Source: Burkholderiaceae bacterium (GTDB taxonomy: Bacteria; Pseudomonadota; Gammaproteobacteria; Burkholderiales; Burkholderiaceae_C). Taken from it: a stretch of DNA of 46,272 nt. The first letter of the stretch is position 1; each line of letters starts with the position of its first letter. Both the position numbers and the translations under genes were made by a program. This document shows positions 1,920-4,293 of this stretch, piece after piece. The notes under the pieces are model-generated. The model searched no databases, was not told the origin of the DNA, and saw only the letters and a list, made by a program, of their open reading frames with translations. The stretch spans positions 1 through 46,272 of the forward strand of contig JAFMFB010000018.1 in assembly GCA_017856435.1 (NCBI GenBank), written 5' to 3'.

Positions 1920-2117
1920 TCAGCCTCCGGTGACTGGGGAAATGATTTCAATGTGATCGCCATCGTGCAAGAGGTGTTGATGGTACTGCGCACGTGGAAC
2001 AAAGTGCGTATTGACGGCAGCGGCAAAGGGTTGCTTAGCGTCTATGGCGTCAATGGCTTGCGCCAGGCACGCCCCTTCCGGCAGGTCATGGACAACCTGG
2101 TTGATCAATACCTTCAT
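1920..2117 (-). CDS. thiS: Sulfur carrier protein ThiS
   Basis: A 65-residue ubiquitin-like sulfur carrier. Its C-terminal Gly-Gly (SPVTGG at the extreme end) is adenylated and thiocarboxylated, and then donates sulfur to ThiG. Length, beta-grasp-like pattern and terminal GG all fit the family. The start overlaps the thiO stop by four bases (ATGA) and the stop is one base before the thiG start, so thiO, thiS and thiG are very probably one translationally coupled unit. Confidence 0.93.
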   Translation of the reverse strand: MKVLINQVVHDLPEGACLAQAIDAIDAKQPFAAAVNTHFVPRAQYHQHLLHDGDHIEIISPVTGG

Positions 2118-3205
2118 TGGGTAGCCCCAATTTCAAGTGAAAACTTGTTGGCCAGAGGAGATGCATTTTTAAGGACCAATTCGAGGGTGATATCGAGCAA
2201 GGCCGGTGCGATCATGAAGCCATGTCGATATAGGCCGTTGATTTGAAAAGATCTGGGACCAAGCCGCCGGATGGCAGGCAAATTGTCGGGCAGGGTAGGT
2301 CGGCACTGGGTATTGATTTCCAGAATGCGTGCCTCGGCAAAGCCTGGATCCACAGCATAGGCTGCACTCATCAACTCCAGCGTCGAGCGCACACTGGGCG
2401 GCGAGAAATCTTCACTCTCAATTTCTGTGGCCCCGATCACATACACCTGCTCAGGTTTGGGTGCAATGTAGATGGGATAGCGTGGGTGAATCAGACGGGT
2501 AGGGCGACTCAGCCGTACCTGTGGAGCCTGTACCCGTGCCACCTCACCACGCACACCGCGCAACTGCGGCCATTGCGGCTTGGCGCCCAGGCCCCGGCAG
2601 TCAAATATCCAGTCGGCTTCGGTTTCGTTATTGCCCGAAAAGTCCTCAGGTTCTCTGGATGAGTTCCAGTTCAATTCAATAGCCATTGATTCAAGTTCAT
2701 GGACCAGGGCTGAAAGCAGTTGCCGGTTATCAAGTTGGCCTTCAGCGGGTAAATACAAACCCTGCGAAAAGCGTGATTCCAGACTGGGTTCCAAATGCTG
2801 CAGGTCTGCGCTGCCAAGCGTTCTCATGGTGGGCAGATCCGGCAGCAATGTCTGGGTTTTACGCAACTGAGCTGCAAAGCGTTGGGCTTCAGCAGCGTCC
2901 TGGCGGTGCCACAAGACGAGCGTGCCTTCCTGCTGAAAATATACCGGCTGTTTTAACTGGCCCAGCAACTCCGGCCAGCGAACCAGGGAGTACTGTCCCA
3001 TCCGGACCACGCTGGGCTCGGTAATTGCCGATTCAGCCAGCGGGGCCAGCATGGCCGCGGCAACCCGAGCAGTGGCATTGTTGCCCTGTGCATCGCCAGC
3101 TTCATGAACGGTGACCTGGTGGCCTGCCCGAGCCAGTTGCCAGGCCAGCAATCGGCCCATTAAACCGGCGCCAATCACGATCGAGCGGGGTCGGGCTGAG
3201 GTCAT
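2114..3205 (-). CDS. thiO: Glycine oxidase ThiO (FAD)
   Basis: An FAD-dependent D-amino acid oxidase-family enzyme that oxidises glycine to dehydroglycine for thiazole synthesis. The 363 residues start with the dinucleotide-binding motif VIGAGLMG (10-17) and end with a GLYRHGFMIAP segment typical of ThiO. The start has GAGG nine bases upstream. Only 26 bp separate this ATG from the divergent thiD ATG, leaving almost no room for its own promoter. Its transcript may therefore originate at the TPP riboswitch beyond thiD, or from a promoter inside thiD. Confidence 0.93.
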   Translation of the reverse strand: MTSARPRSIVIGAGLMGRLLAWQLARAGHQVTVHEAGDAQGNNATARVAAAMLAPLAESAITEPSVVRMGQYSLVRWPELLGQLKQPVYFQQEGTLVLWHRQDAAEAQRFAAQLRKTQTLLPDLPTMRTLGSADLQHLEPSLESRFSQGLYLPAEGQLDNRQLLSALVHELESMAIELNWNSSREPEDFSGNNETEADWIFDCRGLGAKPQWPQLRGVRGEVARVQAPQVRLSRPTRLIHPRYPIYIAPKPEQVYVIGATEIESEDFSPPSVRSTLELMSAAYAVDPGFAEARILEINTQCRPTLPDNLPAIRRLGPRSFQINGLYRHGFMIAPALLDITLELVLKNASPLANKFSLEIGATQ

Positions 3206-3231
3206 TTCAAAAAGCCTCGATAATTTTTACC

Positions 3232-4062
3232 ATGAGCACCAAACCCCATTACCCCCGCGTTTTGTCGATTGCCGGTTCTGACAGCGGTGGCGGCGCAGGT
3301 ATCCAGGCCGACCTCAAGACCTTTAGCGCTCTGGGCTGTTACGGCATGACCGCCATCACGGCCATCACGGCACAAAACACCCAGGGCGTTCGGGCTATTC
3401 ATGGGGTGCCGATTGATGTCCTCAAGTCCCAGATCGAGGCGGTGCTTGACGATATCGGCACAGACGCTCTGAAAATTGGAATGCTTCATGCCCCTGAAGT
3501 GGTGGAGGTCGTGGCTTGGGCGATCCGCCACTATGGCATTCGTCTGGTAGTCCTTGACCCGGTCATGATTGCGACCAGCGGCGACCGCTTGATTGCTGAG
3601 GAAACGGTGGCCGTGCTGGTGAAGGAACTGTTTCCCCTGGCGAGCGTGGTCACCCCCAATCTGGACGAGGCCGAATTGTTGCTGGGCCATCCGATTTCTA
3701 ACCAGGCCGAACTGTTGCCAGCGGCACAGGCATTGCTCGCCCTTGGAGCCCCTGCAGTATTGCTCAAGGGGGGGCATCTGGCGGGTAACCAGGTGGTTGA
3801 CGTCTTGCAATTGGCCAGCGGAGAAACCCTCGAGTTGGCAGCACCACGCATTGATAGCGCCAATGTACATGGCACGGGCTGCACCCTGTCGTCGGCCATT
3901 GCCGCCAACCTTGCGCTCGGGCAAGAACTTAGCTTGGCTGTGAAGAACGCCAGAAGGTACATCCTGCAGGCAATCGAGGCGGGCCGTGCAGTGCGAACCG
4001 GTCTTGGCCACGGTCCGTTGAACCATGGGTTTGCACCAGTGGCCATGCACCTTATGCCTTGA
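3232..4062 (+). CDS. thiD: Hydroxymethylpyrimidine/phosphomethylpyrimidine kinase
   Basis: A ribokinase-fold kinase that phosphorylates HMP and HMP-phosphate to make the pyrimidine diphosphate used by ThiE. Visible motifs are the N-terminal substrate loop SIAGSDSGGGAG (12-23), LDPVM, VTPNLDEAELL, and the anion-hole/catalytic segment HGTGC (H213, C217). The 276 residues match the family. It is divergent from thiO, and there is no Shine-Dalgarno sequence in the A/T-rich 26 bp before the ATG, so initiation may be weak or the mRNA leader may start inside thiO. It lies on the opposite strand between the TPP riboswitch and the genes the riboswitch points to. Confidence 0.94.
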   Translation: MSTKPHYPRVLSIAGSDSGGGAGIQADLKTFSALGCYGMTAITAITAQNTQGVRAIHGVPIDVLKSQIEAVLDDIGTDALKIGMLHAPEVVEVVAWAIRHYGIRLVVLDPVMIATSGDRLIAEETVAVLVKELFPLASVVTPNLDEAELLLGHPISNQAELLPAAQALLALGAPAVLLKGGHLAGNQVVDVLQLASGETLELAAPRIDSANVHGTGCTLSSAIAANLALGQELSLAVKNARRYILQAIEAGRAVRTGLGHGPLNHGFAPVAMHLMP

Positions 4063-4082
4063 CGATCTACCCACTTGCATAT

Positions 4083-4106
4083 CTACGTTCTGCCCTACGT
4101 TCTGCC
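4083..4106. repeat. Tandem 12-bp direct repeat
   Basis: CTACGTTCTGCC occurs twice back to back between the thiD stop and the riboswitch. It is an exact duplication with no coding role that I can see. Confidence 0.8.
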
Positions 4107-4115
4107 GCTCTGTTT

Positions 4116-4126
4116 GGGCAAGCAGT
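4116..4126 (-). promoter_or_regulatory. Candidate anti-P1 strand of the riboswitch expression platform
   Basis: On the minus strand ACTGCTTGCCC can pair with GGGAAGCAGT (4155-4164), the 3' edge of the TPP aptamer, giving ten base pairs with one bulged base. Formation would compete with the ligand-bound aptamer. No U-tract follows, so if it works it is more likely to affect Rho access or RNA processing than intrinsic termination. This is my reading of complementarity only. Confidence 0.35.
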
Positions 4127-4151
4127 GGGGCGATGGGTGACCAAGGCTGAC

Positions 4152-4242
4152 TCGACTGCTTCCCTGCGTGAGCATTAACTCCATCAGGTTCAAAGGGTTT
4201 TTCTCAGCAACCGGCCAAGTTCAGGCAGGAAGCACCCCTAGC
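4152..4242 (-). promoter_or_regulatory. TPP riboswitch (THI element)
   Basis: Read on the minus strand, the segment has the THI-box landmarks in order: TAGGGGTGC, then GCTGAGA, then ACCCTTTGAACCTGAT, then a variable P4/P5 portion TTAATGCTCACG, and finally CAGGGAAGCA. These are the conserved thiamine pyrophosphate-binding core elements. It lies between the stop of the upstream ferredoxin reductase gene (4294) and the 3' end of thiD, and points toward thiD antisense and beyond it to thiO. No other gene in the right orientation lies closer than thiO at 3205. Confidence 0.93.
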
Positions 4243-4293
4243 GAATATTTTCAATAAATCACAAGCTGATTTTAGACTGCCAGCCTGGACCAA

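Follow-up and report, generated by a model that had tools for sequence, protein, structure and literature searches.

The DNA analysed here, referred to as the window, is a stretch of 46,272 nucleotides (nt) from a Burkholderiaceae bacterium (assembly GCA_017856435.1, contig JAFMFB010000018.1), in which a thiamine pyrophosphate (TPP) riboswitch, the kinase gene thiD and the thiamine genes thiO, thiS, thiG and thiE (thiOSGE) lie side by side (Table 1). In a first-pass annotation of the window, the riboswitch had been placed on the minus strand past the 3′ end of the plus-strand thiD, with thiO as the next minus-strand gene about 950 nt further on. This arrangement was borne out by the RF00059 match and the protein family matches, with 938 nt separating the end of the aptamer (4144) from the start of thiO (3205) and the starts of thiD and thiO lying, as had been stated, 26 base pairs (bp) apart. 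What the annotation overlooked is a minus-strand open reading frame (ORF) of 292 codons that fills the gap between the aptamer and thiO. This ORF begins 63 nt past the aptamer, crosses all of thiD in a frame aligned with the thiD codons (antisense frame 0) and ends at the start codon of thiO, where its TGA (3204-3202) overlaps the thiO ATG (3205-3203) as ATGA.

Table 1. Features of the thiamine locus, with positions in the window.
Feature	Position	Strand	Evidence or remark
TPP riboswitch aptamer	4249-4144	minus	RF00059, 63.5 bits (gathering threshold 54.3), E 3e-10
Candidate -10-like element TAAAAT	4269-4274	minus	roughly 20 nt ahead of the aptamer; likely promoter for transcription of the riboswitch
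Leader, aptamer to antisense ORF	4081-4143	minus	probable expression platform
Antisense ORF opposite thiD, 292 codons	4080-3202	minus	putative translated conduit
thiD, hydroxymethylpyrimidine kinase, inverted inside the unit	3232-4062	plus	PF08543, E 8e-94; TIGR00097 above cut-off
Candidate thiD -10 element GATAAT	3219-3224	plus	directly before the thiD start codon; probable
thiO, glycine oxidase, first thiamine gene on the far side	3205-2114	minus	PF01266; TIGR02352, 254 bits (cut-off 250.8)
thiS	2117-1920	minus	PF02597
thiG	1918-1109	minus	PF05690, E 2e-101
thiE	1019-105	minus	PF02581; TIGR00693, 145.9 bits (cut-off 145.1)

The antisense frame of thiD

A total of 80 genomes formed the set of relatives that was searched for the aptamer, thiO and thiD. 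The aptamers were found with Rfam and with a covariance model built here (R1); a fuzzy text pattern was dropped for its far too many matches. An antisense stop in frame 0 corresponds to a TTA, CTA or TCA codon in thiD, and the number expected was derived from the other genes of each locus. The test set comprised 46 loci in which thiD is inverted close before thiO with no aptamer between them, while the control set consisted of loci with an aptamer between thiD and thiO (37 loci, or 40 in the frame-specific test, for which L104, L106 and L121 were added). Before counting, 12 duplicate loci were removed, and the counts were limited to the BLAST-aligned part of thiD.

In the test set, 9 antisense-stop codons were found in thiD versus 129.1 expected, with 43 of the 46 loci having none; the antisense frame is thus conserved open beyond chance, as in antisense overlapping genes. 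The comparison genes of the same loci had observed-to-expected ratios of 0.86-1.13, namely 189/181.4 for thiO (45 loci), 109/126.2 for thiG (44 loci), 117/103.5 for thiE (43 loci) and 64/67.1 for fpr (29 loci). Control thiD genes had 31 such codons versus 34.5 expected (37 loci), and the counts for the remaining groups were 1/3.3 for thiD on the same strand (3 loci), 24/21.0 for thiD elsewhere (5 loci) and 3/3.2 for loci too partial to be placed (4 of 12 countable). Moreover, the deficit was specific to one frame. In the 42 loci left after L041, L051, L101 and L149 were excluded from this and the fourfold test below, which flatters the zero, antisense frame 0 had 0 stops versus 115.9 expected, and the other antisense frames had 247/262.2 and 352/333.9. 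The respective values in the control loci were 37/36.6 for antisense frame 0 and 206/210.2 and 348/233.0 for the others.

Over 21 lower-GC loci among these 42, TTA and CTA accounted for 0 of 702 leucine codons in thiD versus 251 of 2,417 in the other genes, and TCA for 0 of 278 serine codons versus 133 of 1,017. In the same loci, thiD and the other genes had CTT at 5.3% vs. 6.9%, TTG at 54.7% vs. 32.9% and TCT at 16.5% vs. 9.0%, respectively. Single lower-GC loci had no stops where more than ten were expected (0/12.7 in L128, 0/10.6 in L119, 0/10.4 in L102 and 0/10.2 in L110). In the window itself, thiD is the sole gene without TTA, CTA or TCA among the 32 genes of at least 200 codons, as called by a simple codon score, with 5.2 expected (P = 0.004). 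Altogether, these counts indicate that the antisense frame of thiD is kept open by selection.

The third codon positions of thiD are the first positions of the antisense codons, and selection on the amino acids of an antisense product should therefore slow synonymous change in thiD. Fourfold divergence was measured without CTN and TCN codons, and no reduction pointing to purifying selection on an antisense protein was found: the divergence of thiD relative to other genes had a median of 0.95 (365 pairs) vs. 0.92 in the control (461 pairs), the pairs not being independent, and ranged over the divergence classes from 0.85 to 1.01 in the affected loci vs. 0.88 to 1.04 in the control. No Pfam match was obtained for the product of the window ORF, nor for any of eight products from different loci, and the parts of the ORF outside thiD differ in look between groups, as judged by eye. 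The simplest reading seems to be that openness alone is selected, and not the amino-acid sequence. Within the genus, the value for the fourfold sites of thiD was 0.35 in the first 30 columns near thiO and 0.29-0.42 elsewhere (0.46 in the control for that bin), so that no locally conserved synonymous stretch of thiD was detected near thiO in the genus loci.

Gene order, junctions and leader in related genomes

The order of aptamer, inverted thiD and thiO was shared by 16 of 25 further genomes from the genus, and additionally in G017 the aptamer and thiD lie at a contig end that cuts the order off. A comparison of related genomes, which the first-pass annotation had proposed as a check, thus shows that the layout is not due to chance. 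In each of the 17 genus loci where this order is complete, a gene of the opposite strand, thiD, stands within a functionally linked set, between the riboswitch and thiOSGE, and the aptamer is retained; the distance from the aptamer to the thiD stop was 54-85 nt in the 18 loci measured (the window and 17 others). The same 17 loci have a frame-0 ORF of 291-360 codons, which starts 22-63 nt after the aptamer with ATG, GTG or TTG and ends at a thiO start. In 15 of them an ATG precedes the thiD stop by 18 nt, the exceptions being L040 (GTG at -21) and L054 (ATG at -21), and in L042 and L053 the junction was scored on an in-frame thiO ATG upstream of the one first assumed. The starts of thiD and thiO are about 25-38 nt apart in the genus, but 162-177 nt in L042 (G012), L054 (G024) and L055 (G025), where a dispersed repeat lies between the two genes, within the final portion of the ORF, and the ORF passes unbroken to the thiO start. 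The core of this repeat, AAGCCGGTTCCACGGCGTTCC (21 bases), has two exact copies in G012, six in G024, six in G025, eight in G018 and none in the host genome (G000).

Over the test set, the first frame-0 stop past thiD meets the thiO start in 40 of the 46 loci, versus 0 and 7 for the other two phases. The junction takes the form ATGA in 26 loci, TGANATG in eight, TGAATG in three and TRATG in three. In neither L051 (G021) nor L149 did a frame-0 stop turn up in the stretch from thiD through the first 90 nt of thiO; in L051, the antisense frame is seemingly in frame with thiO, giving an open frame of 642 codons and a possible fusion of antisense thiD with ThiO.

At the other end of the ORF, the aptamer is not directly upstream in 27 of the 46 loci. 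In 10 of these 27, a tight junction was found with an upstream gene, which encodes a short-chain dehydrogenase (PF13561 in the three tested, L102, L112 and L118) or is cytX-like (the CytX model TIGR02358 scored 243 bits, below its cut-off, on the G006 gene that served as query): the ORF start overlaps the upstream stop as ATGA in L112, L116, L118, L125 and L129 and as GTGA in L130 and L131, and follows it by 2 nt in L102, L110 and L128. Judged by these junctions, the antisense ORF often appears to occupy the position of a normal cistron within a compact operon. As a separate observation, the dehydrogenase gene adjoins thiD in L102, L110, L128, L112, L116, L118, L125 and L129, overlapping or abutting the antisense ORF, and it overlaps the 3′ end of thiD by about 40 nt in L118, L125 and L129.

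Other arrangements were found in other genera. The aptamer stands directly before thiO, with thiD pointing away, in L057, L059, L060, L063 and the Acidovorax loci, among others, while a cytX-like gene lies between the aptamer and thiD in L062, L064, L111, L115, L119, L130, L131 and L150. In an alignment inspected by eye, the genus aptamer was closer to the aptamers of cytX-like genes than to those directly before thiO, and therefore the genus layout likely originated by loss of a cytX-like gene. When thiO was placed in a tree of 78 rows, one set of 21 (support 99/97) contained 18 of the 19 loci whose ORF directly follows the aptamer; L127 sits apart, adjoining two loci with cytX-like genes, and the aptamer-before-ORF label takes three changes. 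By eye, the TPP aptamers fall into two sub-types: the first precedes a cytX-like gene or the antisense ORF, and the second stands immediately ahead of thiO. Furthermore, divergent pairs of TPP aptamers 46-187 nt apart were observed at G033:C400:731-995, G046:C2:393749-394068 and G072:C11:385040-385445.

The match to RF00059 is the single one in the whole host assembly (2.57 Mb, 98.87% complete), in which no match was found to ThiC (PF01964) or to the permease family PF02133, which includes cytX-like genes. ThiC and cytX-like genes are the usual partners of such riboswitches. Since neither is matched in a near-complete assembly, the host may rely on an outside pyrimidine precursor of thiamine, imported by another route. 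The host ThiE carries about 90-110 extra N-terminal residues outside the models of thiamine monophosphate synthase, PF02581 spanning residues 110-277 of 304.

Ahead of the aptamer, a hexamer TAAAAT, TAGAAT or TACAAT was seen by eye in all 17 loci with a printed stretch from fpr to the aptamer (L035, with no fpr to measure from, stands outside this comparison). In most of these loci, a GC-rich hairpin followed by a T run, resembling an fpr terminator, precedes the hexamer, and in all 17 the sequence ATTATC (ATTATG in L039), the complement of the candidate thiD -10 element, lies between the starts of thiD and thiO, both by eye. Scans for sigma-70 promoters and terminators returned no more sites than in shuffled sequences, and the simple promoter scan missed the TAAAAT element. 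Past the aptamer, the leader is C-rich in many genus loci; in the window it has no terminator-like site and no excess folding stability (z 0.14). When 18 loci were folded, the leader paired with the 3′ side of the aptamer without constraint and was freed when the aptamer was forced in several of them (L043, L048, L035 and L033), and an alternative GCAGGG:CCCTGC pairing appeared in some. This predicted folding is only suggestive of a switch.

Interpretation and competing explanations

On the basis of gene order and codon content, a single non-contiguous operon probably comprises the riboswitch, the antisense strand of thiD and thiOSGE, with the antisense stretch being translated. Transcription would start at a promoter whose -10-like element precedes the aptamer by about 20 nt. 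Under scarcity of TPP, ribosomes would start just past the aptamer (about position 4080), translate the antisense strand of thiD throughout, stop at the TGA overlapping the thiO start and reinitiate on thiO, followed by thiS, thiG and thiE. The sequence of the ORF product would be irrelevant, as the ribosomes would serve to cover about 900 nt of otherwise naked RNA and keep the termination factor Rho from stopping transcription. When TPP is plentiful, the aptamer would form and, through ORF initiation, Rho access or both, the whole unit would be shut. Untranslated RNA is a target of Rho, and an overlap of stop and start codons couples the translation of neighbouring cistrons; because of this, the ORF would both shield the transcript, with Rho probably held off by translation of the conduit, and couple thiO to it. 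More generally, it is likely that an ORF selected solely for its readability carries ribosomes through the antisense strand of the inverted gene, so that the operon can cross it, with the riboswitch of this genus gating the conduit directly. Such an ORF would represent a new kind of coding element.

A single unit of riboswitch, antisense thiD and thiOSGE had already been suggested in the first-pass annotation, and gene order together with selection on frame openness up to the thiO start lends it strong but indirect support. The long untranslated antisense leader that this suggestion implied is contradicted, as the open frame and the thiO junction are evolutionary evidence that the leader looks translated. 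From the layout, it would follow that low thiamine raises antisense RNA against thiD, although translation of the antisense strand could weaken its pairing with the thiD mRNA.

Several observations weigh against the proposed translated passage. All 9 stops of the test set fall in three loci with a broken frame (four in L041, one in L051 and four in L101), and in L111 an additional stop lies near the end of thiD, in its tail beyond the counted part. Besides these three loci, L062, L064 and L149 miss the junction between the ORF stop and the thiO start, and the upstream junction was tight in 10 of the 27 loci where some other gene precedes the ORF, being looser or unassigned in the remaining 17. 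Openness alone says little in high-GC loci, for which reason the analysis turned to relatives of lower GC and to control genes. Frames spanning two codons are not perfectly described by the null model, as seen in control frame 2 (348 vs. 233.0) and in the sense frames (ratios of 0.62-0.85), unlike antisense frame 0, which rests on single codons. The loci also share ancestry and their counts are not independent, yet fourfold differences were at least 0.3 in 780 of 798 binned pairs. Regarding translation, the Shine-Dalgarno energies at the ORF start were -3.8 to +1.4 kcal/mol in the genus, with a median of -2.6 at random places; in the lack of a good match, the start codon assigned to the ORF is not certain. 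For thiO, the Shine-Dalgarno match is fair in the window (-5.9 kcal/mol) and poor in 16 of 17 loci; the window thiO may therefore obtain ribosomes by other means besides coupling. The switch between aptamer and leader was only partly shared among the 18 folded loci. Finally, G014, G019 and G022 keep the ORF and the ATGA junction behind fpr without an aptamer there; since the ORF persists in them without the riboswitch, its presence appears to depend on thiO rather than solely on the riboswitch, which is what an ORF serving thiO would be expected to show.

Four other explanations were weighed. That the antisense ORF is a true overlapping gene for a functional protein, lying in the thiamine unit by chance, is improbable: the frame is indeed kept open across a range of Comamonadaceae and some neighbours, but the fourfold sites of thiD change as fast as in the control, none of the eight products matched Pfam and the ends outside thiD are unlike between groups. 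A similarly low probability is given to a thiO promoter inside thiD, which had been raised in the first-pass annotation, with the riboswitch either making only RNA against thiD or being a relic of a lost cytX-like gene. RNA polymerase is able to initiate within genes, and a cytX-like permease gene does lie between the riboswitch and thiD in G040, G047, Limnohabitans T6-5 and Limnohabitans Baikal, from which condition the genus may have lost it. However, an internal promoter leaves the selection on the frame upstream of it unexplained and has no need of an open frame along thiD; the aptamer is kept in all complete genus loci and the -10-like element in all printed ones; and the fourfold sites of thiD near thiO are not more conserved than elsewhere, although the control is higher there.

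The two remaining explanations set translation aside or look to thiD itself. In an operon of the Staphylococcus menE-menC type, the antisense stretch would be untranslated and regulate thiD by RNA pairing, its openness being incidental to GC content. The layout is the same, and GC-rich genes frequently have an open antisense frame 0, but this explanation is very unlikely given the size of the stop deficit (9 vs. 129.1 in 46 loci and 0 vs. 115.9 in 42), its restriction to one frame, its absence from control thiD and the stop/start junction in 40 of 46 loci. Hardly credible is that thiD shuns TTA, CTA and TCA on account of its own expression level, tRNA supply or a similar factor. Neighbouring genes likewise use these codons sparingly, and the few thiD genes on the same strand have 1 vs. 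3.3 expected; against this, the codons occur at about the expected numbers in the control thiD (31/34.5 and 37/36.6) and in thiD elsewhere (24/21.0), and the other leucine and serine codons ending in A or T are not markedly depleted in the affected thiD.

Relation to known systems

An operon would be expected to be interrupted by an inverted gene, or else to cross it as untranslated antisense RNA, which should be terminated by Rho. The locus suggests a solution that can be recognized in a sequence, namely an antisense strand without stops whose end overlaps the next start, and this offers a general way to screen whole genomes for hidden operons and for antisense RNA that is translated. It could also account for conserved long antisense ORFs that lack a functional protein, and it would constrain codon choice in the inverted gene. 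Among the open-access titles and openings of abstracts listed, no description was found of a riboswitch-headed non-contiguous operon, of a translated antisense passage or of this locus.

According to a review (PMC7154746), the menE-menC-MW1733-ytkD-MW1731 operon of S. aureus (Saenz-Lahoya 2019) is a non-contiguous operon with an internal untranslated region that pairs with the opposite mRNA. The thi locus, as known from its sequence, resembles it in having a gene of opposite direction inside the operon, from which overlapping transcripts are expected. Unlike the untranslated stretch described for S. aureus, that of the thi locus is a selected open frame joined to the next gene, and it is headed by a riboswitch. 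The same review describes riboswitch-controlled antisense RNAs as regulatory products, with Listeria rli39/aspocR and the Clostridium S-box opposite ubiG as examples (PMC7154746). The thi locus is similar to these in that a riboswitch convergent to a gene would control a transcript antisense to that gene; in contrast, the antisense RNA is the regulator in the systems so described, whereas that of the thi locus is read as a route to the downstream genes.

The riboswitch of E. coli thiC belongs to the same aptamer family, and its TPP aptamer is reported to control both the start of translation and Rho termination through mutually exclusive folds (PMC5234074). There, the controlled start is that of thiC itself, while in the thi locus the controlled start would putatively belong to an antisense ORF whose product is not conserved. 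Finally, pop is, like the thi ORF, a long ORF opposite a known gene, in that case ompA, and is argued to function as a gene transcribed from a promoter of its own, sharing no mRNA with its upstream neighbour (PMC7103648). The thi ORF differs from pop as described there in linking the genes of what would be one unit, without a sign of selection on its amino acids.

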